This document shows, piece by piece, positions 631-24,614 of a DNA stretch of 28,746 bases. The stretch is from a virus. The notes under the pieces were generated by a model. It saw nothing but the letters and a program-made list of their open reading frames with translations. It had not been told where the DNA came from and made no database searches. The stretch is from positions 1 to 28,746 of the IMG/VR virus record IMGVR_UViG_3300005613_000321; one strand, written 5' to 3'. Position 1 is the stretch's first letter; each line of letters begins with the position of its first letter. The position numbers were made by a program, and so were the translations under genes.

Positions 631-1815
631 TTATAGATTTTCATTTATCCGCTTCTCTGCAATTTTGAAATACGCTTCATCTAACTCTATTCCTATGAAA
701 TTTCGGTTAAGATTCTTACAGGCTACTCCAGTAGTTCCTGAACCCATGAAAGGGTCTAAAACTACCCCGCCAGATGGAGTTTTTGTCAATTTGCAGAGAT
801 ATTCCATTAGTTTGATGGGCTTTACAGTGGGGTGATGGTTTTTGTATTTAACATTTCTTTCGTTACCACTACCAGTTTTCATTGTGCATTTAGCACCACC
901 CATTTTATCTATATCGCATTTGGCTTTTTCTTCGCAATTTTGAAGCCCTTTATCACGTTCTGAACGACTTGCTTTAGCACAATAAAAGAATCTACCCGCC
1001 GAACCTTCGACCTCTAAATGATTGTAACTTGTGTCTTTACCACTTCCCCAAATACCTTTGTTTGAATGACTTGTGACTTTGCCTGTTTTTGTATTCGGAA
1101 ACAAATCCATAACCTCTTGGCTACCATCATGAATAAAATTAGCAGGAAATCTACCAGTAGGTTGTGGTTTAACTTGAAACTTACTTTTCTTTGGTTCTTT
1201 GTTTTGGAAACAATCTTCTTTGGTGTAGTGTCTTATATCATATTCACCTTGCCCTGCTGGCACTCTGCAATCATCTATATTTAACCCTGCCACACCATGT
1301 TTTAAGGCATTATTAGCAAAAGACCCATCAGTTGACTTCATGGCTACAATAATAGGCTCATAGGCGGGCTTTAAAGCTGTTCCATAGCCAATAAAGTCAA
1401 TCCCTGTCTTAAATTTAGCTGTTTTCATTATTTGTTTCTGTATATTAAGACTTTTAGGAAATCCACTGCCATAAACCCACATAATACAATCTCTTATCTC
1501 CCAACCAGCATCTTCAATGGCACAAGCTATTCTGTGATAAGTCCTTGTGCCACCAAAACATAGAAGAAATGCTCCAGGTTTTGCAACACGCAAGACTTCT
1601 TTCCATAAGTCAACCTTTAAGGCAATTCCAGTTCCATCCCATTCTTTACCCATGAATCCGCCTTTAGCAACTCTTGTAAATGGGCTATTTTTTCCACGTT
1701 CAAAACCGCTATTTGTTTTTATGAGATTGTATGGCGGGTCAGTAATAACAGTATCTACTAAATTATCTGATAGATTTGCCATAGCTATTAAACAGTCATC
1801 ATTTATCAGTTTCAT
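631..1815 (-). CDS. Site-specific DNA methyltransferase (beta-class, N6A/N4C type)
   Basis: 394 residues with motif IV (TDPPYN, D26-Y29) near the N-terminus and the AdoMet-binding motif I (DPFMGSGTT, about 354-362) near the C-terminus. This IV-before-I order is the beta class of amino-methyltransferases, with a long central region as target recognition domain. PTVKPIKLMEYL before motif I is the usual motif X region. I chose the ATG at 1815, preceded by GAGG, over an ATG 13 codons upstream that has no good ribosome binding site. The start overlaps the end of a 54-residue gene by 17 bases, so translation is probably coupled. It likely modifies phage DNA against host restriction; the target sequence cannot be read from the protein. 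Confidence 0.9.
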   Translation of the reverse strand: MKLINDDCLIAMANLSDNLVDTVITDPPYNLIKTNSGFERGKNSPFTRVAKGGFMGKEWDGTGIALKVDLWKEVLRVAKPGAFLLCFGGTRTYHRIACAIEDAGWEIRDCIMWVYGSGFPKSLNIQKQIMKTAKFKTGIDFIGYGTALKPAYEPIIVAMKSTDGSFANNALKHGVAGLNIDDCRVPAGQGEYDIRHYTKEDCFQNKEPKKSKFQVKPQPTGRFPANFIHDGSQEVMDLFPNTKTGKVTSHSNKGIWGSGKDTSYNHLEVEGSAGRFFYCAKASRSERDKGLQNCEEKAKCDIDKMGGAKCTMKTGSGNERNVKYKNHHPTVKPIKLMEYLCKLTKTPSGGVVLDPFMGSGTTGVACKNLNRNFIGIELDEAYFKIAEKRINENL

Positions 1816-1963
1816 TCTTAACCTCATATTTTTGAACAAGTTGCGTAATCCCATCTTGTAATTTCATATAATCTTTACTCTTAATTGTTGTGCCAAGTTT
1901 AAGGTTTACCTGACATATTCCGTCTTTCTCAAACAATCTGAACTCCCATTCATATAGCTTCAT
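1799..1963 (-). CDS. Small hypothetical protein, 54 aa
   Basis: A 54-residue frame (begins MKLYEWEFRLFEKDGICQVN, ends KNETDK) with an excellent ribosome binding site, AAGGAGAAGAAAA, directly before the ATG. It fills the space between the 56-residue gene and the methyltransferase and overlaps the latter by 17 bases. The protein is charged, with no signal peptide or membrane segment and no motif I recognise. Support comes from the ribosome binding site, tight packing and codon-like composition. Confidence 0.65.
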   Translation of the reverse strand: MKLYEWEFRLFEKDGICQVNLKLGTTIKSKDYMKLQDGITQLVQKYEVKNETDK

Positions 1964-2251: not shown

Positions 2252-2431
2252 TTAATCAGCTATAGGAACACGCTTTGCCATAAATAAAATTAAGTCTTGG
2301 AAACACTTGAACGAAGCTAGAAACTCCCATTCTTTTTCTATACTAAATTTTTGCTTTACTATATAAATTCCATCTAGATAAACTAAATATATTGGTTTAT
2401 GATAATCACTTTTGCCTTCAAATATTATCAT
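2252..2431 (-). CDS. Small hypothetical protein, 59 aa
   Basis: A 59-residue frame (begins MIIFEGKSDYHKPIYLVYLD, ends KRVPIAD) that starts inside the stop codon of the lytic transglycosylase gene (ATGA) and has AGGAGG five bases before its ATG. The pattern of short strands followed by a helix suggests a small alpha/beta protein. It is neither secreted nor membrane-bound. Position directly after the endolysin could point to lysis, but nothing in the sequence shows it. Confidence 0.7.
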   Translation of the reverse strand: MIIFEGKSDYHKPIYLVYLDGIYIVKQKFSIEKEWEFLASFKCFQDLILFMAKRVPIAD

Positions 2432-2865
2432 TTTAGCCTCCTGTACTTTTTAATATAGTCCTTAGTGATTTTAGGTAACTCTTTCCATTTAACCATATTG
2501 CCTATACCAAAATTGTAAGCTGTGATTCGACTCTCAATGGTATCTTCAAAACCATAATGTTTGAGCATTTGAGGTATTCTTTTATTGTAATACCATTCTG
2601 CGATTAAAACATTTATACTTGGAGTGAATAAGTCTAATTCATCGTATTGGCTGTTGGGGTGATAGTTATTCCATTCAGTTAAAACAATAGCAGATATTTG
2701 ACAAAGCCCTATCTCTCCGTTTAGACCGATAGCTTCGGGGTTTTCTGATGACTCTATTTGAATTATACGAGAAATGTCTATATCTTCAGGAAAGCAGACT
2801 ATTGATATGAGAGAGTAGAGGATTATGAAGAAAGTGATTAAGAATAAGTTAGTTTTGGGGTTCAT
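2428..2865 (-). CDS. Membrane-anchored or exported lytic transglycosylase (probable endolysin)
   Basis: 145 residues. An N-terminal hydrophobic stretch at about 7-24 is a signal anchor or signal peptide. The rest matches a compact SLT/GH23 lytic transglycosylase: IIQIESSENPEAIG with the catalytic Glu, GEIGLCQIS, and ITAYNFGIGNM (the AYN-x-G motif). The enzyme cleaves the MurNAc-GlcNAc bond of peptidoglycan. The combination of one hydrophobic N-terminal segment and a phage context suggests a signal-anchor-release type endolysin, which is an inference. It overlaps the upstream regulator by four bases (ATGA) and lies in the unit with its own promoter. A virion-associated wall-degrading role is less likely because it is separated from structural genes by a terminator. 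Confidence 0.85.
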   Translation of the reverse strand: MNPKTNLFLITFFIILYSLISIVCFPEDIDISRIIQIESSENPEAIGLNGEIGLCQISAIVLTEWNNYHPNSQYDELDLFTPSINVLIAEWYYNKRIPQMLKHYGFEDTIESRITAYNFGIGNMVKWKELPKITKDYIKKYRRLK

Positions 2866-4675: not shown

Positions 4676-7408
4676 TTAGTTCTTATACTCAATCATTCCT
4701 TGGTAAACTGATATTGTATTGCCAGCTTTGGCGTTATCCCACTCCACCGTTACGGTTATATTTTCTGCTCCAGTTGTATCCACCGTTTCAATAGAAACCT
4801 CGCTATCGTTAAAGCCGTTTATATCTACGTGCTGATGAGTCGCAATACTACCAGTAGCCCCCACGCTTCTTACAGTCCACTCTCCCGTAATATGCCAAGG
4901 TTCATCTGATACATTGCCTATCGCTGGGTTAAAAGTAATTAAGGTAGTTCCACCGATTTTTATTCTTATGGTAATATCATCAGCAGCGGTAGCGTTGGTA
5001 ATCGAACCGCTGACTGTGCCCTTTAGGACATTACCCGCTTTCAGAGAATCGGCAGGGATTGTGCCTGTGAATATAGTTGTTTCGGTTGTTGTATTCGTTA
5101 CAGTAGTTGTTGAAGTTATTACATCACCTGTCCTGTCTATCGCCCGTTGTGTGTCTACATTTGTAACATACATTCTATCATTGTCAAATTCAAACGTACC
5201 TGCAACTGGTGATCCGAGAAGTGAGCCTGAATCAGTAATTGTAAGAGCGTGAGATAAATCAAACCTGCCTGTATCTTCGTAATACTGCAAATATCCCTGT
5301 GTTGTATCTCCGTAAAAACCTAAAGTATAATCTCCATCGGTTCCATCGCCTATAAAAACTGTTCCAGCAGTAGGTGTAATTTCCAGTTGTCCATCAGAGT
5401 TTGTATAGAAGTCTGTTTCATCTACCCCGTCTGTATGGGTGAGGCGGAGTTGAGTAGTAGTATCAAGAATTTCAAGGGTTGTTGCTGGAGTTGTTGTTCC
5501 TATGCCGACATATCCATCAGCAGCTATTCTCATTCTTTCAGTTCCAGTTAAAGTCGTATTGTTTGCAGCTGTATAGAACTTTAAAAGAGTCGCAGCATTT
5601 CCACTTGATGTTCCACCTCCATAGCTTACAACATTATTGACATCATTAACATAACCATACATAATGACGTAAGGCTCTTCTTGTATATCATAGTGGTAGC
5701 CGCCAATTCTCATAGATTTAGTAGTATCGTCTGTATAATTTGAGCCTCCCATTAAAGACCAGTTTCCCAATACGTCTAATTTTTGGGTTGGCGAAGTTGT
5801 TCCTATGCCGACATCACCACCTTTAGGTTGTAAAAGAAGAGGTCTGTTTAGCCAAGATGTTAAAGGTTCTAAACTTTGGATATATGAATATTCGTAAGCA
5901 TCACCAACGCCTAATAATAATGTTGTTTCTCCTGCTTGTGCTGGTCCGCTATCAATTCTTACACCTGCTTGTGATTGATAAGCTGTGTCTGATGTTGTAT
6001 CTGCCACAACATTGAATTTATTGTAAGGCACAGTTGCACCAACAACAACATTCCCACCATTAGGGTTTAAAAGTAAGGGATAGTTTGTCGCTAAGTTTGC
6101 GGCATCTGTTACTTGCAACCAAGCACCATTACCGCCATTAAGTCCTATATCTAATACCCCTGTTCCTGCACCAGTTCTAAATCTCTGCTTATGTCCTGCA
6201 CTTTGACTTGAACCGCTTGTGGCGGGATAGGCGTTCCCTGCGTTGTTTACTTCTAGTGTTGTTGCGGGAGTTGTTGTTCCTATACCGACTTTATCTGTAT
6301 ATCCTGATGCATTAACTACAAGGGTTGTGGTGTCTACGATTAAACTTCCAAGTGTTCCAAGCCCACTGAATGTCGCCGCTACTCCACCTGTAATTGAGCC
6401 ATCATCTATTGTAAGTGTGCCGTCGGTGAGAGAAGTCCCTGTTATCGCCCCTGCTCCAAGAGTGCCAGTGGTAGACAAATTATCATCATCAAAACTTATC
6501 GTTCCTGTTGAGTCGGAGATTACATTTCCGTTAAGATTAAGGGTATCTACATCAAGGTTGCCGAAAGTTCCGAGTCCGGTGGTGGTAAGGTTGCCTGAAG
6601 CGTCAATTGTCAAAGTTCCTGAATTTACATTAACTCCACCAGCGAGATATAAAATATCCGTACCTGCTTGATAGGTCATTCCCGTATCGCTGGCTATTAC
6701 GCCACCATTAGAGAATAGGACCTCAGCATTTGTTAAGCCTATATTTACATCATCTCCGAAGGTGGCTCCATAAGCAGATAAGTTTCCATTACTATCAATA
6801 TAAAAGACCTCTGCTGAGTCGCTGTCATATACAGAGAAATGACCTGTTCCGTCATTGTCGAATAGTTGATTTTTAATATTATAGGAGTTTATCCAAAGGT
6901 CAGCATTTAGTAATCCTGCACCTGCTGCCCCTACCTGTCTGGAATAAATACGAGAGCCGTAAGTAAAGTCATCACCAGTATTTACGCCATAGAATCCTAT
7001 ATATCCGAGATAATCATTGTTGCCTGTATCAGACATTGCCAATGCTGTATCAGTGTGTGATTTCTGAAGAAGAAGTCTTGAGTAGTCAGCATCTAGAGCT
7101 CCGTAAGTAGTTAGCCATAATTTTGCATCTTCGGTAGCTTTGTAAATATCGAGACTATTTGTTAGAGGGTCGTTTGAGGTGTCTAGTTTGAGATACGTTG
7201 TTGGAAGAGAACCGCCAACAAAATCTATTGAAACTGTACCGTCTGTATTGTCTGTAAGTGATGTGTTAGGGAAGATACCTTTCCATACTTGGACTGTAGG
7301 AGAACCATCTTCTTCTTCAAGAACTAAACCCCCAGCATTACTATGTTGAGGATAAACTTGTAAAGAAAAAGAAATTAAGAATAATAAAGTAAAAATTAGT
7401 TTTTTCAT
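4676..7408 (-). CDS. Tail fibre/spike-like protein with N-terminal signal peptide
   Basis: 910 residues. Residues 1-20 look like a Sec signal peptide (MKKLIFTLLFLISFSLQVYP). Next comes EEEDGSPTVQVWKG...TDGTVSID, a block common at the start of phage tail-fibre-like proteins. The middle is a long Gly/Thr/Asn-rich beta repeat region, including three VGIGTT-x-P-x-x-x-L(D/E) units at about residues 373, 532 and 633, which are typical of fibres and of bacterial surface proteins. The last 150 residues form a compact beta domain (SLKAGNVLKGTVSG...ISVYQGMIEYKN) that may be the receptor-binding head. No endosialidase-type chaperone domain is seen. A signal peptide on a tail fibre is odd; it may instead be a hydrophobic trimerisation or anchoring segment. 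It overlaps the upstream gene by four bases. Confidence 0.75.
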   Translation of the reverse strand: MKKLIFTLLFLISFSLQVYPQHSNAGGLVLEEEDGSPTVQVWKGIFPNTSLTDNTDGTVSIDFVGGSLPTTYLKLDTSNDPLTNSLDIYKATEDAKLWLTTYGALDADYSRLLLQKSHTDTALAMSDTGNNDYLGYIGFYGVNTGDDFTYGSRIYSRQVGAAGAGLLNADLWINSYNIKNQLFDNDGTGHFSVYDSDSAEVFYIDSNGNLSAYGATFGDDVNIGLTNAEVLFSNGGVIASDTGMTYQAGTDILYLAGGVNVNSGTLTIDASGNLTTTGLGTFGNLDVDTLNLNGNVISDSTGTISFDDDNLSTTGTLGAGAITGTSLTDGTLTIDDGSITGGVAATFSGLGTLGSLIVDTTTLVVNASGYTDKVGIGTTTPATTLEVNNAGNAYPATSGSSQSAGHKQRFRTGAGTGVLDIGLNGGNGAWLQVTDAANLATNYPLLLNPNGGNVVVGATVPYNKFNVVADTTSDTAYQSQAGVRIDSGPAQAGETTLLLGVGDAYEYSYIQSLEPLTSWLNRPLLLQPKGGDVGIGTTSPTQKLDVLGNWSLMGGSNYTDDTTKSMRIGGYHYDIQEEPYVIMYGYVNDVNNVVSYGGGTSSGNAATLLKFYTAANNTTLTGTERMRIAADGYVGIGTTTPATTLEILDTTTQLRLTHTDGVDETDFYTNSDGQLEITPTAGTVFIGDGTDGDYTLGFYGDTTQGYLQYYEDTGRFDLSHALTITDSGSLLGSPVAGTFEFDNDRMYVTNVDTQRAIDRTGDVITSTTTVTNTTTETTIFTGTIPADSLKAGNVLKGTVSGSITNATAADDITIRIKIGGTTLITFNPAIGNVSDEPWHITGEWTVRSVGATGSIATHQHVDINGFNDSEVSIETVDTTGAENITVTVEWDNAKAGNTISVYQGMIEYKN

Positions 7409-13719: not shown

Positions 13720-16700
13720 TTAGCTGGTTGCTCTCTCCCCTGTATCTTGCCCTAGTTTTTTTCCATATAAATCTATACCATAAATAGTAGGAGCAGGATT
13801 ACTTGAATCATCTTGTAATTTAATCTGAAACATATTCTCTACAGTACCAATATCAAAAAGAGCTGTCTTACCAAAAGCTAATTCATCATTATGATTAAAA
13901 CTAAAAGTTTCAGCTGTTGTCCAAGATACATTCCAGTCTATACGATGTTGAAAATTCATATTTATAGTTGAAGCAGAAGTTATTTCTTTTAAGTTTATTC
14001 CTACACGAAGCATTTTCATTGCTAAACTTACTAGCTCTGGCTTTATTTTCCCCGATACCCAATAGGCATTTATATCTGTACCATCATCATCATTACCACT
14101 TTCTACTTGCCACATATAGCCTGTATATCCTGCAACATAAAGTATCTTGGCTTTATTTGTAGAAATAACATAAGCTGAACTGGAAAAGACTTGATTGTCA
14201 TAAGGATAAATTCCACCTGTTTTATAATCAAGAACAAAAGCATATCCAATTGAAGTATCGCTATCTAAAACTGCATATAAGATATACTCGTAAGTATCTT
14301 TTTTAACTACTGCGTGAAATAAATCAGCATAAACTAAATTCATATCTGAAAAAGATTTTGGCTGATCATCAGCAGTAGCAAACAAATCATTAGTTTTTTC
14401 AGTTAGAGCATCGTTTATAACCTGAACATTATACCCATCAAAGATAGCTAATTTTTTATCAGAAGTAAGAAACACTAAAACAGTACCTAACTCACCACCC
14501 ATATCCACTTCTTTAATCGTATAATGAGCCGGACTACCAATGCCTAAAATTGGATCAACTTGGAAAGTAGGATTGGAACCAAGATAACTTACTCTATGAA
14601 CAGAATATCTTTTAAAAACATAAAGCTTTCCTTTAAGAACTCTCATCCCGGTAATTACATCACCATCATTAGTGTCAAAATTAAGAGTTTGAGCCGCCGT
14701 CCAAGTAGTGTAATCAGATAAATCAGAGTAACGCATAACATTAGGTGAACCTCTTATGCCTGCCATAAATACATATTTTTTCCAAATAGTCATAAACTTA
14801 CCGATAGGAGCAGCCGCTACAGTAGAAACTGCCCCCGTACCTGTATATGTATAAAGCCCTATATCTGTATTTATTAAAGCTCTACCGGATTGCCAATCAG
14901 CAAATGTAAAATATCTACTTGTAGTTAATAAAGAAGCTACATAAAAATTATCTATATAAAAAGTAGTTTCAGCATCAGCATTAACGATAGTTATTATTAT
15001 TGAATCTATATCATCTTTATTAGCGTTAGTTACAGCAGATAAGTCAATAGTTACAGTTTGCCAAACATTAGCTGAAGTGATATTGGGAGTAGTTTCTGTA
15101 GTTGTTCCTCCAGAGTCATGTATCCCTATTTTTATATTACTTCCAGTTCTTGAAGAACGAATATCAAATTTAAGCGTATTCTCATTAGATAAATCTATAG
15201 CCGTTCCAAGAGTGTTAGTAAGGGTAGAATTTAAACCATCTGTAAGCTCTGCTATCCCTTTTAAAGAATATGTACCTTGTGTTTTAATTGTAGATTCAGA
15301 ATAACTTCTTATTTTTTGGGTAGTTATAGCACTACCTGCCTTAAACCAATCTACATAAGCAACCATATTAGCTGCAGTTGTACCATCTATCTCAAATATA
15401 GTCCGTCCATCTGTATTTCCTCCAAGAGAACAATCTACATTAGCTTGAACTAAATCACCATCCAAATATACATCTACCGTTCCATTAGTTTCATCAATGT
15501 CAAATGTCCACTCTTGCCATGCATCTTGAACAACTATGTTTGTTCCAACCTCATTATAAGAAGCACCGTCATAAATAAAAAGACCATCTGTACCAAATTG
15601 ACAAATACAACGATATTGTCCTCCACCACCATCGAAAGAAGCATAGAAAGAATCAGAATTGCTATACTCTCCTACGTTATCAAGATATAATCTAAAAGAA
15701 ACAATTGTTGGATCAGTATAACTACCAATATCTTGCCTTCTCTGGACATATGTACCTCCTCCAGCGGCTCCTGTTTCTAATTTCATACATGATTCAGAGT
15801 CAAATGTTGCTTGTGAAGAAGCCCCAGTTCCAGCCTTAACCTCAGTCCAGTCAGATATATCTGCCATATCTTCATCATCTATATCTCCATTAGATTGATT
15901 TCCAAAAGAAGAACTTACATAAGCCGCTTGAGCTAAAGCATCAGTAGAATACTCCATATAATCCACTTCAGCACTTACATTATATAAATTATCCCAAGTT
16001 CCATCAGGAGTTCCAACAGAACTTTTATCCATTTTATATAAAGTAGTTCCAAAAACACCTATCATCATATTTTTAGAAGAAAAATCCCAGAGAGCAAAAC
16101 AATCATTACCTTTTGCTCCGCCAGTGATATAAACTTCAAATATGGCATCATATCTTTCATTTGCTGCCCAAGTTGTACCATCATAATCACTCATACTCCC
16201 ATCAGCAAAAACCAAATCATAATCATCAGCACCCCAATTAGCATAAGCAGTTCCATTTATGGTATTATCTCCTTGCAAAACTATATGGTATTGTGTGCCT
16301 GAAGTTAACGATGGACTGGTTGTAAAAGTAAAAGTGTACCAATCATAAGAGGTTGTAAGTGTAGATATGTCTATATTTGCCGAAGTTCCATTTGTAACAG
16401 CTGTACCGGAAGGTTTTCCTGAACTATCGGTTTGTATTTCTATGTTTATATTTCCTGTAGGAGTGCTTGTCTTTTTAAGCCATAATCTTACTTTTTGCAC
16501 AGCGGCAGAAGTCCCTGGTTTAAACCCTTGAGATATTTGTGTTCTTGCAGCTGCATCACGAACAGCATAATCATGCGTTTGATAACCTGGAGGATAATAA
16601 CAATCAAGATCATCACTGCCGGTTGCAGATGAATTTATTTTAGAAAATCCACCTCTTTTGATTAAACGATTAGGATTACCAGCACAATGAAAGTTCCTCA

Positions 16701-16804: not shown

Positions 16805-17503
16805 TTATTTATAATCAGTTATTCTTACACCTCTAGTCGAATTTATTGGAATTGCAGGATGCCCCATTCTTGCAGCTTTACCTTGGTTCTTATCATCTTT
16901 TTTAAAAGCTGCATTAAGTATCCTCATCGCTTTTCTTTCCCAAGCTGTTAACCCACTTAAATCACCCTGTTTACCAAGCAAATCCGAAACCCCAAGATAA
17001 ACTATTGCTAACTGCTGAGAAGTATCCGGTATTTCAGGAACATCGGTGTCACCAGACAATTCAGTCGGCTTTTTAACATAATCATAATTAATCTCGGTAT
17101 ATAAACTGATAAATGAAGCCGAAGGACGAGGAGAAAACTCTATTTTAATTGTCCCACTACCTTTGGTAATTCTACAAATCTCAGGGTCACCATCAGTATC
17201 ATTATCACTTTCTCGTTTCCATCTAGCATCATCTACTACGTCAATAGGAATTCTTAATCCATTAGACTCATACCAACAGGAAATAATATGGTCAAACCCA
17301 GAAATCAAAGTATAAGCTTGTGTCGAGGCTGTAGGAGTAATCGTACTTTCTCTCCTGAGTATTTTCCAATCTCTAAAAGAAGCTATTAAACGTAATGCAT
17401 CGTTAGCTGCTTTTTTTGCTTTAGTTGCCGAGCCTGTTACATTGTTAATACCTGCATAGTCCTGAATACGTTCGTACAAATCACTAAACTGTAAACCATA
17501 CAT
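16805..17503 (-). CDS. Head-tail adaptor (tail tubular A / gp4-like)
   Basis: 232 residues. The N-terminal helices (FSDLYERIQDYAGI; AKKAANDALRLIASFRDWKI) are followed by a beta middle (STQAYTLISGFDHIISCWYE), RITKGSGTIKIEFSPRPS, and a C-terminal helix region containing DTSQQLAIVYLGVSDLLGKQ. This is the layout of the adaptor that binds the portal underside in short-tailed phages. TAGGAGAATAGGT lies before the ATG and contains the stop of the preceding gene. The next gene begins five bases after its stop. Absence of long-tail genes nearby supports a podovirus-type connector. Confidence 0.75.
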   Translation of the reverse strand: MYGLQFSDLYERIQDYAGINNVTGSATKAKKAANDALRLIASFRDWKILRRESTITPTASTQAYTLISGFDHIISCWYESNGLRIPIDVVDDARWKRESDNDTDGDPEICRITKGSGTIKIEFSPRPSASFISLYTEINYDYVKKPTELSGDTDVPEIPDTSQQLAIVYLGVSDLLGKQGDLSGLTAWERKAMRILNAAFKKDDKNQGKAARMGHPAIPINSTRGVRITDYK

Positions 17504-17505
17504 AC

Positions 17506-17940
17506 CTATTCTCCTACACTTTCTTTAATTAATTCTTTTATTTTCTTTAAGTTAGCAACTCTCTCTTTACTCTCTTCAATCGCTTTTTGTAAAGTCTTCT
17601 CAAGTCCTGCATTTGATTTGATAAGATTATCTGCTTCTTTTTGTTTAGTAATAAATTCACTTTCTTTTGCAGCAGCAGAAGCTTCTCTTGAAACAGCTTT
17701 AGTCATTTTTTCTTTTGCTGATTTCAAAATCTCTTCAGCTTTGACTTCACTTTCCTTTTTGATTATTTTAGATTTTTTCTCTAAATCAAAAATTTCTTGA
17801 GATAGTTTATCCCTTTTAACTTCTAGTTCTTTGACTCTAATCGCTGAATTTGCTTCTTGTGCTTTAAGAGTGTTTACTTTGTTTAAAGCCTGTTTTACCG
17901 CATCTTCAATAAAATTACTTATGCTTGTTTCTCTTGCCAT
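17506..17940 (-). CDS. Coiled-coil protein, 144 aa
   Basis: 144 residues, nearly all one long charged helix (from about 15 to 140: ELEVKRDKLSQEIFDLEKKS, EEILKSAKEKMTKAV), with Glu/Lys-rich heptads, no Pro or Cys and no membrane segment. CAGGAGGTAAAA precedes the ATG. The start overlaps the preceding gene by 26 bases. Position just before the adaptor suggests a head-completion or assembly factor; sequence alone does not say. Confidence 0.6.
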   Translation of the reverse strand: MARETSISNFIEDAVKQALNKVNTLKAQEANSAIRVKELEVKRDKLSQEIFDLEKKSKIIKKESEVKAEEILKSAKEKMTKAVSREASAAAKESEFITKQKEADNLIKSNAGLEKTLQKAIEESKERVANLKKIKELIKESVGE

Positions 17941-18187
17941 TTTTACCTCCTGTTTTTTTCTTTGTATCTTTAACCTTTTTAATCTCTTTTGGTTCTTCTA
18001 TAATCTCTTTGGGTTTTTCTTTTTCTACAACTTCAAATTCACTCTTGTTAGGCAAACCAAAAATGTAATTAATTACCTGTTTATCTCCAATATCCAAAGT
18101 ATAATCATTCTCATTAGAAAAAGTATATGGAGTTCTGCCAAACCTGACTTGATAAACTGTTCTTCGACCAATGTATTTTACTAACAT
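17915..18187 (-). CDS. Small beta-domain protein with charged Lys/Glu tail, 90 aa
   Basis: 90 residues. The first 55 form a small beta domain (MLVKYIGRRTVYQVRFGRTP, NDYTLDIGDKQVINYIFGLP). The rest is a Pro/Glu/Lys tail (EKPKEIIEEPKEIKKVKDTK) ending in a very basic KKKTGGKNGKRNKHK stretch. Similar small proteins with an N-terminal VKYIG-type domain occur among head-tail genes of metagenomic phages. GGAGGG lies nine bases before the ATG. It overlaps the Wzy-like gene by seven bases. A neck or head-completion role is a guess. Confidence 0.5.
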   Translation of the reverse strand: MLVKYIGRRTVYQVRFGRTPYTFSNENDYTLDIGDKQVINYIFGLPNKSEFEVVEKEKPKEIIEEPKEIKKVKDTKKKTGGKNGKRNKHK

Positions 18188-19239
18188 ATAAATCTACCCT
18201 CCTTTTTAGATTCTATTTTCCCAACTTCAAGTAATGCAAAAAGAACTACTGCCGTTCCCGCTAAACGAGCATAATCTAAAAACGAATATCCAAAACCAAT
18301 TACAACCAATATTAAACAAGCAGTAATTAATTCTCTTGAACAATTTTTATATAAACTATTTCTTATAAAAAGTATAATAGCTATTAATCCTGCTATTCCT
18401 AAAGCATGGGTTATACCAAGATACAGATTATATGGATCATTATACTGAACACCATCATGTATAAATTTAAAAGTTCCTACTCCATATCCCCAAATATTTT
18501 TTATTATAAGACTAAATGCTTCCTTCCAAGCAACCCACCGGATTAAAAACCTGCTAACTAAATTATGTTGTAATCCTGCTATCACAAGTACAATCAAAGG
18601 AAATATTATATGTTTTAATTTCAATCTCAAAAGATAAATCATTCCAATAATCATTGCCAATATAGATGTTGCAGATTTTGATAAGAATAAACCAACAGCA
18701 GGTATTAAAGCAAGAAAAGGATTTAATGAATACGTTATCGGGATAGCAATAGCTTGATAAATACCGAGATGAGTTTTATAACTCATTAAACCGACAATAT
18801 CATCTTTACGCCAATAAATAAGGTTTATATCAAAATATTGTAATACTGCAAAAATAGTGTTTAAAGTAGCTACTGAGAAAATTATCCAAAAAAACATTTT
18901 CTTTCTACTGGCATAAATTGATACTAAATAGTAAATTGCAAAACCTGCTAGAATAGTAAAAAAATTCTCCATTGTTTTAGGATTAGAGAAAACACTCCAA
19001 ACATATATCCCGAATAATAAACCTAAATACTTGTTGTCAAACTTTCTTTTAGGTTTATCAAATAAAGCCGCTAAGAAAAGAAATACTGCTCCATATTGAA
19101 AAAATTGTAATTGCATTAAATTACCACTTCCAGTAAGAACCCCAAACTGATACCATTGCAAACGAGCAATAAATCCATTCAAGGGGACTATTACTATTGG
19201 AGATAATAAAAGAAATATTGCTAAAACAAAATTAAACAT
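18181..19239 (-). CDS. O-antigen ligase/polymerase-like (Wzy_C-type) polytopic membrane protein
   Basis: 352 residues with roughly ten hydrophobic segments (for example 3-20, 46-60, 93-110, 114-135, 190-205, 211-223, 274-292, 305-320). The large loop holds RWVAWKEAFSLIIKNIWGYG, VGTF and NDPYNLYLGITHALGIAGLI (234-286), matching the R-x-x-W...GyG-x-GtF...HN-x-yL pattern of O-antigen ligases and Wzy polymerases; the usual loop His is replaced by Asp-Pro here (NDPYN). Such proteins act in the inner membrane on lipid-linked O-chains. It starts on the last A of the upstream gene's stop (TAATG) and overlaps the next by seven bases, so it is fully inside the structural operon. Altering host surface glycan to block superinfection or rebinding is a plausible role, by inference. 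Confidence 0.7.
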   Translation of the reverse strand: MFNFVLAIFLLLSPIVIVPLNGFIARLQWYQFGVLTGSGNLMQLQFFQYGAVFLFLAALFDKPKRKFDNKYLGLLFGIYVWSVFSNPKTMENFFTILAGFAIYYLVSIYASRKKMFFWIIFSVATLNTIFAVLQYFDINLIYWRKDDIVGLMSYKTHLGIYQAIAIPITYSLNPFLALIPAVGLFLSKSATSILAMIIGMIYLLRLKLKHIIFPLIVLVIAGLQHNLVSRFLIRWVAWKEAFSLIIKNIWGYGVGTFKFIHDGVQYNDPYNLYLGITHALGIAGLIAIILFIRNSLYKNCSRELITACLILVVIGFGYSFLDYARLAGTAVVLFALLEVGKIESKKEGRFIC

Positions 19240-19598
19240 TATTCATATCTTAATATTACACATCCATCATTGATTACTAAGTACAAACCATCTGTTAATT
19301 CTAACGGTTTATCACTAAAATCTTGATGTTGGCTTCCTAATGCTGTTACTTCAGAACCTTCGGCTTTAATGTTAGCAAGAATTTCAGTAGCACCTGTTGT
19401 TTGTTCTGTATCATCAAGTACCATAAAATCACCGCCATTTGCTGAAGCTGTAAAAGTAATAGAATATATTATTGCATTGCCACGTTTAACTAAAGTGCTT
19501 GCTTTATAAGCTGTAACTGTAGCAGTATTTCTATCAGCAAAAGCAACTGGTACTAAAAATAATGTCATTAAAAGTATTCCTAAAACTTTTCTTTTCAT
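19239..19598 (-). CDS. Exported small beta protein B (paralogue of the next gene upstream)
   Basis: 119 residues with a clear Sec signal peptide (MKRKVLGILLMTLFLVPVAF, cleavage likely after AFA). The mature part is beta-rich: ASTLVKRGNAIIYSITFTAS, DFMVLDDTEQTTGATEILAN, FSDKPLELTDGLYLVINDGC, VILRYE. The order G-x-aiYsi..., D...T.IL, DF.D-x-P-x-x-x-T-x-GL-x-iv, v.YE/K is shared with the protein encoded at 19655-20041, so the two are paralogues. The pattern without a signal is known from small phage head or tail proteins. AAAGGAGAAAA precedes the ATG, right after a strong hairpin. A periplasmic or membrane-attached role is suggested but unproven. Confidence 0.65.
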   Translation of the reverse strand: MKRKVLGILLMTLFLVPVAFADRNTATVTAYKASTLVKRGNAIIYSITFTASANGGDFMVLDDTEQTTGATEILANIKAEGSEVTALGSQHQDFSDKPLELTDGLYLVINDGCVILRYE

Positions 19599-19654: not shown

Positions 19655-20041
19655 TTACTTGTAATGAACTACTACATCAGCAGTTGTTGTTACTATTACT
19701 AGACCACTTGTAAACGGAATACCTTCGTCCCCAAAATCATTAAGAAGAATAGGGTCATATTGCGTAGCTTCTCCACCTTCAGTCAAAATGTTTGTTTCGG
19801 CTGTCGGATGAGTTATTGCTTCTGCTAAAGTAGCTTTATCATAAATGATATAGCTTGCCTGAGCAGAAGTAGCACGCCCTACAACCTTATACAAAGTTCC
19901 TGAGCCTGTTACGATTAAAGTATTCGTATGAAGTGCAATCCCAGTTTTCATGGGGATAGTTCTAGCGGATTCTGCTTGTGCTGAAAACATAAGACCAAAC
20001 CCAACTAAAACTATAAGAAATATAGTAGATATTTTTCTCAT
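19655..20041 (-). CDS. Exported small beta protein A, next to the capsid gene
   Basis: 128 residues. A Sec signal peptide (MRKISTIFLIVLVGFGLMFS, cleavage likely after AQA) is followed by a beta domain: LIVTGSGTLYKVVGRATSAQ, YIIYDKATLAEAITHPTAET, ILTEGGEATQYDPILLNDFG, IPFTSGLVIVTTTADVVVHY. It is a paralogue of the next gene. AAGGAGGAATT precedes the ATG, nine bases after the capsid gene ends. Position alone would suggest a head decoration or stabilising protein, but a signal peptide would take it across the membrane. Either it is exported or the N-terminus is used differently. Both readings are inference. Confidence 0.65.
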   Translation of the reverse strand: MRKISTIFLIVLVGFGLMFSAQAESARTIPMKTGIALHTNTLIVTGSGTLYKVVGRATSAQASYIIYDKATLAEAITHPTAETNILTEGGEATQYDPILLNDFGDEGIPFTSGLVIVTTTADVVVHYK

Positions 20042-20050
20042 AATTCCTCC

Positions 20051-21343
20051 TTAAACACTAATTGGGTTATCAGCATAAGTTTTCATAAGCACACAATTAA
20101 CACTATCTCCAGCACTGTTCTCGATGACTGATTGACCATAAACTGCTGCTACACCTAAACCATTCTCAAAAGATGAACCATCAGGAAACTGATAATCATA
20201 ACCTTGAGTAATCGGAGTGGGTTTCATACCCCAACCACGTACAGCTATTTCAGCTCCAAAACCAACTGCTGTAGCTACGTTACGTTGTGTTATCAACGCA
20301 CCAGCTGTATGAGCAGCCGCGGTCGTCCCGTTAGCTCCTCTAGTACATCCGGCAAAACGATAAGTTGAACCAGTTACACCAGCCTCAGTTATACTGGTAT
20401 AGGTAATCTCTTCGCTATCAACAGTAATTGTTCCAGTAGATGAGAAAAAATCTCCTAAGTCTTTCTTACTTGTAGAAACATCAAATTCAAACTCTTCAGA
20501 AGCATTAGTAACCGTAGTGTAAAGTCTTACTTCTGGTCTTAACGGAGAACCTTGAATGTTATTAGCTGATTTCTTTGCCTTGTGAACATAGATAATACAG
20601 CCATTATACATACCCAAAGCACCAGTAAAGACACGATTCTTAGAGTAATCTCTTGGACCGGCATCACGTTGTGCCTGATTCCAAACAGAATCTCCCTTTA
20701 ACCAATACTCATCAATCTCAGAAATTACTATACCGTAATACTCTTCTTCCTCACCATTAGCTCCTTCAGTGCGTATCGGTATAGCAGTTCTTTGCAAAGC
20801 TAATTTTATTCTGTCAATTTCTTCTGTTCCAAAATGTGAGCTAGTTCCTAATGTTGCCGCACTTGTAGCACTACCAGCATAGATAGTATTAGTAGCACTA
20901 GATAAGATACTTGAGAACATATCTCCATCTATCTTCCTTGCTAACCAACTGGATAGTTCTGACCTAATTGTTTGAGCAATATTAAAATTAACTCTTTTTT
21001 CTAAACTTTTTGTGTAGGCTATCGCATTTCTAACCCAATCAACAGTTAAGGTATATTGCCCTAAAGCAAGTTTATCTTCACTGCCTGTTAAAGTACTTTC
21101 ACCAGTTACACCTGCTGAAAACAATTGTGATACTACATTAAATCTTAAAGTATCACCAGGTTTCTTAGTAAAATCTTCATTAACTACGATTGGTTTACGA
21201 GAGCCTTCTTTTCCTTCAAACCTAGAACCCCAAAAGGCTCTACGGATTGCATCATCTCTCAACCTTTCCGCCCACCATTCCGGTATAGCGTAGTCTAATA
21301 CGCCAGCTCCGGCACTATAGGACATGTTGTTCAAAGTTGCCAT
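20051..21343 (-). CDS. Major capsid protein (N4-gp56 family, HK97 fold)
   Basis: 430 residues. Recognisable family features are VLDYAIPEWWAERLRDDAIR (15-34), GDTLRFNVVSQLFSAGVTGE (63-82), TVDWVRNAIAYTKSLEKRVN (100-119), YYGIVISEIDEYWLKGDSVW (202-221), GALGMYNGCIIYVHKAKKSA (241-260) and VGFGAEIAVRGWGMKP (360-375). Between the last two is an inserted domain (about 270-355) with GTITVDSEEITYTSI and CTRGANGTTAAAHTAG, a beta module also found in phage adhesion proteins, probably displayed on the capsid surface. GGAGGATGAA before the ATG contains the stop codon of the scaffold-like gene. It forms the icosahedral shell. Confidence 0.88.
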   Translation of the reverse strand: MATLNNMSYSAGAGVLDYAIPEWWAERLRDDAIRRAFWGSRFEGKEGSRKPIVVNEDFTKKPGDTLRFNVVSQLFSAGVTGESTLTGSEDKLALGQYTLTVDWVRNAIAYTKSLEKRVNFNIAQTIRSELSSWLARKIDGDMFSSILSSATNTIYAGSATSAATLGTSSHFGTEEIDRIKLALQRTAIPIRTEGANGEEEEYYGIVISEIDEYWLKGDSVWNQAQRDAGPRDYSKNRVFTGALGMYNGCIIYVHKAKKSANNIQGSPLRPEVRLYTTVTNASEEFEFDVSTSKKDLGDFFSSTGTITVDSEEITYTSITEAGVTGSTYRFAGCTRGANGTTAAAHTAGALITQRNVATAVGFGAEIAVRGWGMKPTPITQGYDYQFPDGSSFENGLGVAAVYGQSVIENSAGDSVNCVLMKTYADNPISV

Positions 21344-22535: not shown

Positions 22536-22804
22536 TACTTCCCTCCTTTAGCACTACTCTTTAATTCTTTTGGTATTCTCTGGACTTCTTTATAAACCTG
22601 ATAAGCTAATTGAAGCCTTTTTAAGTCTTCTCCTGTTAAGCTAGTATCAGTCTTTATTTTATTAAGAATACGTTCCATCTTTTTTTCTATTTCTTCTTCA
22701 TAGAATTTCCAACCCTGACTTTTAGAAATCTCCACCCAAGAAGTAAACTTTTCTCTGGCTTCTCTTACTTTTTCAGCTCTTTTATTGTTGAACAGTTTGA
22801 GCAT
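22535..22804 (-). CDS. Hypothetical helical protein, 89 aa
   Basis: 89 residues from the ATG at 22804 (MLKLFNNKRAEKVREAREKF), which has GGAGGT seven bases upstream; a frame 25 codons longer has no such support. It is helical and basic (EEEIEKKMERILNKIKTD; DLKRLQLAYQVYKEVQRIPK), with no membrane segment. It overlaps the portal gene's end by 23 bases and the next gene by one. Function unknown. Confidence 0.55.
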   Translation of the reverse strand: MLKLFNNKRAEKVREAREKFTSWVEISKSQGWKFYEEEIEKKMERILNKIKTDTSLTGEDLKRLQLAYQVYKEVQRIPKELKSSAKGGK

Positions 22805-24614
22805 CTTTTTGTACCTCCGCTTGCATAAGTTGAGCCTGCATTTGCTCGGCTTGTTGTTTTTCCTGCTGTATTTGTTCAATAGCTTTTAACCGAACATTCC
22901 TCACGTCTATAGACCTGAAAAAATTCTCAGTAACATCAAGCATTGTTTCTTCACTAATAGCAGGGTTTTTACCAAGAGAATTAAGAACAGTATTATAAGA
23001 AAGTAATGCCCTGTCTTGTTCTATAGCACGATTTATATTTACTGAATTTCCTACTGATTCAAAATCGTAATTTCCACCCCAATAAGATTTATTAAGAGTC
23101 TTAAAAGGATTGCCTTGTTGTTCGGTAAGCTGATATATAAAATCATCATCAAGATTTTCAGAATTAAGATTAACAATAAAATCGTATAAATCTTCATTCA
23201 CATCTTGCAAGGCTCTTATCATATCATCAAACTTAATATTACCTTCACCGACTATGGTCATTATTCCTGTAGCAGTTCTATTAGAAGCAATAGAACTTTC
23301 AGAACCTAATGCATAATCAGTAACTCCAAAAAGTTTTTGAACCATTCCAAGCAAAAATTCCATTTTAGCAAATTCCATTTGCTCAGATTTAGGAAGTTCT
23401 AGCACTTTATACCCCGATGGATTTTCTGATTTCCATTTAACACCCGGTCCAAAAGGGTTTAAGTCTTCTTCATGGTCGGAAGGAGTTATTATTGGAGGGT
23501 TATTATTTATAGAGCCTCTATCTATCATTTGATTAAATGTAGCATCTGTCATATCCCTCAAACCAGTTAAAAATTCAGGTACTCCTTTTCCATAAGGAGA
23601 ACCTTCCATCGGGATAATTTGATAATGAAAAAATGGACGAACTTGAAATGGACTTAGCATCCAACCGAGAATAACATTATGCTCAGGAGCTACAAAAGCT
23701 ACTATCTCTTCATCTTTATCATCTCCATTAATATCAAATTTACCATACCACTCGTAAATCAAAATAGGTTTACGCATAGCCTTAGCATGGTCAGCATTAT
23801 TCAAAATATTCTCTTTTATCTTTTTTATATTTTTGAACTTACCCTCTTTAATATCTCCTTCTCTGCGAATTATCCAATCATAGGTAACTTCGTAGCTATC
23901 ACATATCCAATCCCATTCTTCTATTTCAGGACTAATAGCATTTTTGGGAATAATTATTTCTTTTATCGTTCTGCCATAAAGAGCTGGCCCTTCATAAATT
24001 GTTTTTTCATCTTGTATTTCATCTTTGACAACAACTAATCCCGGAGCGGCAGGAAAATCTTCTTTGACCTGGACAGGTGTTCCATCTTCGTTAACTATAT
24101 ATTCTCCGGTCAATTCATTTTGTAAGTAATAAACTACTTTATTAAAAGGACGAGTTTTTTTCTCCCAAACACATTTAGTAAAAGCATCACCTTCTATAAT
24201 AACATTTTTAAAAACAAGTTTCATTTTACGATAAATTTTCATCAAACGAGTAAGCTGATAATTTAGAGCTTCTTGGACTAAGGGAGCTGCTTCTATGTCA
24301 CTTTGCCCCTTGCCCCTAACCCAAGCTACAGGCTTTGCACCATAACATACTTTAAGAAACCTCGGCAATAAACCTTCGATAGTAAAAGCATCTATAGGGA
24401 TACCAACATCACTAGCTCCATCCCAGGGTGAGTCTTTAGGGTTTTTTACGGGGTCATCACCCCAGCCTAAAAGTCCTGATATGGAACGTTTAGCCTCGTA
24501 GCGTTTAACAAACTCTTTAACCTTGTTTATTCTAGGAGTTTGTGTTGCTGATGAGCTTTTCACTTCTTGAATGATATACTTTTTTAGTTTATCTTCAATG
24601 TTTTCTATAAACAT
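22782..24614 (-). CDS. Portal protein (P22-like)
   Basis: 610 residues. Typical portal features in order are PWDGASDVGIPIDAFTIEGL (68-87), a helical clip region (ALNYQLTRLMKIYRKMKLVF), VIIEGDAFTKCVWEKKTRPF, FFHYQIIPMEGSPYGKGVPE, FLTGLRDMTDATFNQMIDRG and SIASNRTATGIMTIVGEGNI, ending in a long Gln/Glu-rich coiled tail (IEQIQQEKQQAEQMQAQLMQ). The dodecameric portal is the DNA channel of the head and docks terminase and adaptor. AGAGGAGATAAA precedes the ATG. The place between terminase and scaffold/capsid genes fits. Confidence 0.88.
   Translation of the reverse strand: MFIENIEDKLKKYIIQEVKSSSATQTPRINKVKEFVKRYEAKRSISGLLGWGDDPVKNPKDSPWDGASDVGIPIDAFTIEGLLPRFLKVCYGAKPVAWVRGKGQSDIEAAPLVQEALNYQLTRLMKIYRKMKLVFKNVIIEGDAFTKCVWEKKTRPFNKVVYYLQNELTGEYIVNEDGTPVQVKEDFPAAPGLVVVKDEIQDEKTIYEGPALYGRTIKEIIIPKNAISPEIEEWDWICDSYEVTYDWIIRREGDIKEGKFKNIKKIKENILNNADHAKAMRKPILIYEWYGKFDINGDDKDEEIVAFVAPEHNVILGWMLSPFQVRPFFHYQIIPMEGSPYGKGVPEFLTGLRDMTDATFNQMIDRGSINNNPPIITPSDHEEDLNPFGPGVKWKSENPSGYKVLELPKSEQMEFAKMEFLLGMVQKLFGVTDYALGSESSIASNRTATGIMTIVGEGNIKFDDMIRALQDVNEDLYDFIVNLNSENLDDDFIYQLTEQQGNPFKTLNKSYWGGNYDFESVGNSVNINRAIEQDRALLSYNTVLNSLGKNPAISEETMLDVTENFFRSIDVRNVRLKAIEQIQQEKQQAEQMQAQLMQAEVQKDAQTVQQ

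Follow-up and report, generated by a model that had tools for sequence, protein, structure and literature searches.

A WaaL-fold membrane protein functionally tied to exported phage proteins in the virion operons of podoviruses

Results

Genes at the locus

The window (the whole stretch of DNA analysed, 28,746 nt) takes up an entire IMG/VR record, and all of its main genes lie on the minus strand. Pfam and PHROG scans of the genes around a polytopic membrane protein, hereafter the enzyme, showed that the virus is a podovirus whose portal and adaptor are of the SU10 type. The features are given below in the order in which the minus strand is read, followed by a more distant gene.

22782..24614, minus: SU10-type portal protein (Pfam SU10_portal, 8e-38)
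20051..21343, minus: major capsid protein, which anchors the conserved slot (Pfam Phage_capsid_3, 2e-22; PHROG major head protein, 5e-30)
19655..20041, minus: exp1, small beta protein of 128 aa with a signal peptide, paralogue of exp2, GEATQY motif (predicted all-beta sandwich)
19239..19598, minus: exp2, small beta protein of 119 aa with a signal peptide (MKRKVLGILLMTLFLVPVAFA^D, by reading and heuristic), conserved, likely partner or acceptor
18181..19239, minus: the enzyme, WaaL/Wzy_C-superfamily polytopic membrane protein of 352 aa (ATG-started ORF, Pfam, AlphaFold model, Foldseek)
18538..18540, minus: Arg234 of the enzyme, equivalent to C. metallidurans WaaL R265 and corresponding to E. 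coli R288 / PglL R298
18469..18489, minus: GYGVGTF loop, enzyme residues 251-257 (G251 and G253 invariant)
18412..18441, minus: NDPYNLYLGI, enzyme residues 267-276, with Tyr270 (18430-18432) where WaaL has its catalytic His
17915..18187, minus: 90-aa protein downstream of the enzyme, order conserved (comparison of relatives)
17506..17940, minus: 144-aa Lys/Glu-rich protein, probably coiled-coil (from its sequence), order conserved (comparison of relatives)
16805..17503, minus: SU10-type head-tail adaptor, downstream anchor (Pfam SU10_adaptor, 7e-12)
4676..7408, minus: 910-aa fibre-like protein with a Sec-type signal peptide (heuristic), possibly a further exported part of the virion

Two signal-peptide beta proteins come after the capsid gene and the enzyme gene is directly next; it shares 1 nt with the exp2 gene upstream (19239-19598) and 7 nt with the gene downstream (17915-18187). 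An initial annotation of this DNA had placed the gene between exported beta proteins and head-tail genes with overlaps of 1 and 7 bases, and this was confirmed, on the minus strand; the co-transcription with late genes that it proposed is suggested by these overlapping same-strand genes. It had also described the phage as having no lysogeny genes. No tyrosine integrase (PF00589) turned up in the window or in nine related records (ten in total), all of which are possibly fragments. Bacterial genomes scanned with the capsid profile gave zero matches. At the record end, two genes at 1-573 and 631-1854 (minus strand) carry, by reading only, the DNA methyltransferase motifs TSPPYDS and TDPPYN.

A conserved slot in SU10-like relatives

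Scanning viral contigs with the window enzyme as a single sequence gave no match, and SU10-like relatives were gathered by portal and capsid scans of viral contigs. Twelve distinct metagenomic relatives (the window not counted) cover the same slot, and in 11 of them it holds a homologue of the enzyme, the exception being L012. The initial annotation had made conservation of the position in related phages a test of its reading, and the position is conserved. Gene order is kept in 11 contigs: capsid, exported protein 1, exported protein 2, enzyme, 90-aa protein, coiled-coil protein and adaptor. Both exp1 and exp2 lie directly upstream of the slot in every covered relative, and we infer that they serve as acceptors. 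A chance ORF was ruled out by conserved homologues, with 28-47% identity and the same position in related contigs.

Several minor features vary among the relatives. Homologues of the 90-aa protein end in a C2H2-type finger (CDECGFTAKSEYGLLVHSRKHK) in L015:11251-11544, L019:16563-16862 and L022:10153-10452, whereas the window protein (17915-18187) is without this finger and its C-terminus is a Lys/Arg-rich tail. In L018:10179-11404, three tandem signal-peptide proteins precede the enzyme, compared to two elsewhere. Interruptions of approximately 0.8-1 kb occur in the terminase gene (L012:7574-8337 and L007:847-1901) and in the portal gene (L021:2622-3667 and L022:2869-3914), which suggests introns, inteins or homing-gene insertions in these relatives.

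Fold of the enzyme

The only Pfam match of the window enzyme was Wzy_C (PF04932; E=5e-4, 20.2 bits, against a curated cut-off of 31.7), and the cut-off was passed by homologues in L018 (35.5 bits), L004 (32.8), L079 (34.4) and L082 (34.0). Neither the PglL_A motif (PF15864) nor Wzy_C_2 was reported for the window enzyme in a Pfam scan at E<=1, and PHROGs held no informative family for the enzyme or for the exported proteins. When twelve homologues were combined into a profile, the one PDB sequence that it matched was the WaaL ligase of C. metallidurans (E=0.025).

The AlphaFold (AF2) model of the enzyme, built from 12 sequences (mean pLDDT 74, pTM 0.78), has about ten long hydrophobic helices, in agreement with the ten-segment membrane protein read earlier from the sequence. 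Its sole significant Foldseek match in the PDB was WaaL 7tpg (E=1.5e-4). Comparison by VIA aligned the model with WaaL at Z 21.4 over 306 residues (3.8 A), followed by SEDS proteins (Z 10-13), which belong to the same wider fold class. These comparisons establish a WaaL fold for the predicted structure and bear out the assignment to the ligase/Wzy family; holins, transporters and other unrelated membrane families were ruled out by the same result.

The dN/dS ratio of the enzyme was 0.15-0.18 (two comparable pairs) versus 0.06-0.13 for the capsid protein. These ratios show purifying selection on the enzyme, of a strength close to that on the capsid gene.

Active-site residues

The GYGVGTF and NDPYNLYLGI motifs noticed initially are present at residues 251-257 and 267-276. 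Nine residues are invariant in the twelve diverged homologues (R65, N127, Q134, R234, W238, G251, G253, Y270 and R325), and the homologue profile pairs R234 with R265 of C. metallidurans WaaL and the DPYN loop with HAHN. WaaL and PglL rely on two Arg and one His (R215, R288 and H338 in E. coli WaaL; R224, R298 and H349 in PglL; PMC3643930). The equivalent of R288/R298 is thus present and invariant in the phage family as R234. About 73 residues ahead of R234, where the second Arg (R215/R224) would be expected, no Arg is conserved; R65 and R325 are invariant and at most putative equivalents. The position of the catalytic His (H338/H349) is held by Tyr270 in every SU10-like member. The initial annotation was therefore right that the loop His is altered, but not that Asp-Pro replaces it, as Asp-Pro stands just before the Tyr.

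Since the catalytic His is Tyr270 throughout its clade, activity of the window enzyme can only be predicted; in PglS, the substitution H324A is inactivating (PMC12800693). Retention of the R288 equivalent, Tyr at the His position and a dN/dS of 0.15-0.18 mark the window enzyme as an altered but constrained member of the family, whose exact activity is a prediction from sequence and model. Another catalytic residue or a water relay would have to substitute for His in the window's clade.

A second lineage with the same pair

The enzyme profile also found homologues in unrelated podoviruses whose connector, capsid and tail tube genes are T7-like. Here the slot reads decoration protein (phrog_486), secreted small beta protein, enzyme and tail tubular gene, and the secreted protein has the GEATQY motif in common with exp1 of the window. 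These T7-like relatives mostly keep His-Asn in the loop (AHNDY, PHNDYL, VHNDWL), although His is lost in L071 and L082 too.

A scan with a capsid profile gave 45 loci, 23 of them distinct and showing the slot (the L067 enzyme runs off its contig). Both partners were present in nine of these 23 genomes, neither in 14, and one alone in none. This pattern needs only two changes on the capsid tree, which makes the count weak statistics, and a test treating the 9/14/0/0 table as independent samples was dropped because of shared ancestry. Joint exchange of the partners is the stronger fact. Two of the nine paired genomes, L068 and L079, carry a different secreted protein (type B) together with a different Wzy_C enzyme (type B). 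Their secreted proteins (175 and 217 aa) are homologous to each other (3e-11 to 3e-12), with no significant similarity to the other type. The two enzymes, both of which keep His, join with 100/100 support, while the phages fall in different capsid-tree clades and are not sisters; both partners were therefore exchanged jointly.

In some T7-like relatives without the pair the slot is empty. In other pair-less genomes (L091:8357-12319, L090:8324-9477, L088:3036-3731 and L078:3918-4544) different genes are often found there: a GT4 glycosyltransferase in L091, genes with weak MptE-like matches elsewhere, and genes that by reading are SAM-methyltransferase-like.

A TMTC-like gene in the place of the enzyme

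In L012 both exported proteins are present and the enzyme's slot (14794-16257, plus strand) encodes a 487-aa membrane protein with C-terminal TPRs (TPR_2, 8e-18). Over its full length it shows homology to TMTC-type proteins of acidobacteria, and the N-terminal membrane part alone (330 aa) matches bacterial relatives at about 2e-14 (blastp). The TMTC type is related to protein O-mannosyltransferases (PMC7801869). From the motif set defined in that work, the L012 protein keeps the DD motif after TM1 (FISDDN) and ERxxY before TM10 (AERYLY), while KE(T/Q)xxT and SHKSYRP were unrecognisable in its sequence by reading. One of the acidobacterial TMTC-type proteins, L106, has a weak PMT_2 match (1.8e-4) below the cut-off. 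Because of the full-length homology and the DD and ERxxY motifs, and despite the missing ones, the L012 protein is likely, not certainly, a GT-C sugar transferase. It belongs to a different sequence family from the window enzyme, which it replaces in the identical slot without being its relative. A scan for further phage copies of this gene returned L012 alone.

The exported small beta proteins

Every exported protein opens with a textbook Sec signal (K/R, hydrophobic core and AxA-type site); these calls were made by reading and a heuristic, not by SignalP. Modelling gave exp1 an all-beta sandwich fold (pLDDT 86). When the model was compared with predicted structures of viral proteins, it matched best with phage proteins of 92-103 aa; these are close in length to the mature domain and apparently lack a signal peptide. 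In its predicted structure the secreted protein therefore resembles a small protein common in phages, in a form made for export. Against PDB folds the beta-sandwich matches were middling (best Z 6.9, nucleoplasmin-like; Z 5-6 for viral turret, capsid and cement folds), and they were dropped as evidence of homology, the scores being too middling to name a family. The exported proteins showed neither a glycosylation site nor a Ser/Thr tract of low complexity.

Discussion

The conserved slot, the pairing in two lineages and the joint exchange of subtypes tie the enzyme functionally to the exported phage proteins. A secreted partner that is constantly present, changes jointly with the enzyme and also accompanies a stand-in sugar transferase, together with the analogy to pglL and pilO, makes O-glycosylation of the exported proteins the most economical reading. 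In bacteria, pglL lies beside the gene of its pilin acceptor in 21 of 31 cases, and TfpO/PilO likewise lacks the PglL motifs, PglL_A included (PMC3643930). In the reading we favour, to which we give an even chance, the enzyme is dedicated to the exported proteins and works as a protein O-oligosaccharyltransferase like PglL or TfpO, or as a near equivalent in function, adding host lipid-linked glycan to them.

Such an enzyme would act late in infection as a WaaL-fold (GT-C type) glycan transferase in the inner membrane. For a WaaL-fold enzyme to work, a glycan on a lipid carrier and an acceptor must both be available on the outer side of this membrane. The donor would be host undecaprenyl-pyrophosphate-linked glycan, which would be placed on the small beta proteins encoded just upstream and exported by the Sec system. 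This would yield phage proteins that carry glycan outside the cytoplasm and that leave at lysis together with the virions or attached to them. The transferase activity, the lipid-linked donor, the protein acceptor with its modified residue and the attachment to virions are steps that we infer from the computed fold, position and pairing.

The initial annotation had proposed that the enzyme modifies the host surface glycan, keeping released virions from readsorbing to debris. An O-antigen ligase- or polymerase-like enzyme could act late in this way by remodelling or shortening host surface polysaccharide, or could so block superinfection, with the exported proteins helping it or binding the altered glycan. 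Membership in the WaaL/Wzy superfamily agrees with such a role, and phage Wzy enzymes that alter O-antigen or capsule linkage are known (PMC4815439, PMC9241936). However, the known cases are prophage-borne and act in lysogens, while here no integrase was found and the gene is fixed in a virion operon, and neither the strict pairing, nor the joint exchange of the secreted proteins, nor the TMTC-like replacement is predicted. We consider action on host surface glycan unlikely as the main function, and a role in seroconversion is disfavoured.

A catalytically dead WaaL relative might instead bind lipid-linked glycan or the host ligase or polymerase as an inhibitor, or act in the membrane to chaperone or anchor the exported proteins. 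Tyr in place of His across the window's whole clade fits this, and an inhibitory role had been suggested initially. Arg234, Trp238, the GxG loop (G251 and G253), Tyr270 and Arg325 are nevertheless invariant across the 12 diverged homologues, the T7-like relatives mostly keep His, and an inhibitor would leave an unrelated transferase family in the same slot unexplained, which makes an inactive protein quite improbable. The least probable reading, that the pair is a passenger or host-interaction cassette that hitchhikes among the late genes (a secreted exclusion protein plus its processing enzyme, for instance), fits the variable T7-like slot (empty, or with GT4 glycosyltransferase or methyltransferase-like genes) but not the presence of the pair, in a fixed order, in nearly all of the SU10-like clade or the purifying selection close to that on the capsid gene.

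The proposed O-transferase resembles several known systems in part. With the WaaL O-antigen ligases (C. metallidurans 7TPG/7TPJ; E. coli RfaL) it shares the fold (Z 21.4), the Wzy_C region, the R265/R288 equivalent and the GxG loop, but it has Tyr for the catalytic His and, with no LPS locus, lies next to secreted phage proteins in the late operon of a phage. Like PglL, PglS and TfpO (PilO), it belongs to the Wzy_C superfamily and its gene adjoins and is co-oriented with genes of small exported proteins (pilin or ComP in those systems); unlike them, it has no reported PglL_A or Wzy_C_2, its partners are virion-type beta proteins, its His is altered and its activity is predicted. The phage seroconversion polymerases (P. 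aeruginosa Wzy-beta and Acinetobacter WzyPh1) are likewise phage-encoded membrane proteins of the Wzy/WaaL class, but they are prophage-borne and act in lysogens, whereas the window gene is fixed among capsid and head-tail genes and no integrase was found. Mycobacteriophage virions are glycosylated by soluble cytoplasmic phage glycosyltransferases acting on cytoplasmic virion proteins. Sugar-transfer genes lie beside structural genes in both systems, but the window has a polytopic membrane enzyme and exported proteins.

Bacterial O-transferases beside their acceptors and prophage Wzy enzymes are thus already known, and the combination with secreted phage proteins in a virion operon appears new. 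The partners tested by tblastn (secreted protein and enzyme) gave no convincing match in 50,697 cultivated phage records, only partial or sub-threshold ones, and no publication naming a phage oligosaccharyltransferase was found in the literature searched. The data suggest that these uncultivated phages sugar-coat proteins sent out of the host cytoplasm. If true, this would be, as far as searched, the first case of a phage particle operon that encodes a membrane transferase dedicated to secreted partners of its own. Phages could then dress particles or decoys in host glycan, with a bearing on readsorption, superinfection and glycan-based phage typing, and the family would be a possible source of new O-glycosylation enzymes with small cognate acceptors.

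Predicted signal peptides on large fibre-like and nozzle proteins

Heuristic Sec-type signal peptides were also found on large fibre-like proteins, in the window (4676-7408, minus strand) and in L117:14623-17568, L119:5198-8580, L122:15267-19168, L125:8433-11036 and L130:7336-9108. Some of these signal-bearing proteins match PHROG tail fibre or virion families or lectin-like folds; the 910-aa protein of the window had no informative family match. The tail nozzle of the T7-like L079 (11549-13948, plus strand) matches phrog_376 (PHROG tail protein, 2e-198) from residue 27, and its N-terminal extension is a signal peptide that is missing in other T7-like relatives. Among soluble ORFs of at least 150 aa in the SU10-like records, 13 of 167 had a heuristic signal peptide (at least two lipoprotein-like and some outside the late region). 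The corresponding figures were 4/70 in paired versus 0/119 in unpaired T7-like loci, and 1/44 in two cultured schitoviruses, the one being a spanin.

These signals suggest that part of the particle is exported. A tentative extension, which we think unlikely, is that virions are finished in two compartments: decoration proteins, fibres and the L079 nozzle would be exported by Sec and glycosylated in the periplasm by the phage transferase, and they would be assembled onto DNA-filled heads from the cytoplasm once lysis opens the inner membrane. A testable claim follows on where tailed-phage virions are completed. A Sec-type signal peptide is also present on a 145-aa transglycosylase-like protein of the window (2428-2865).
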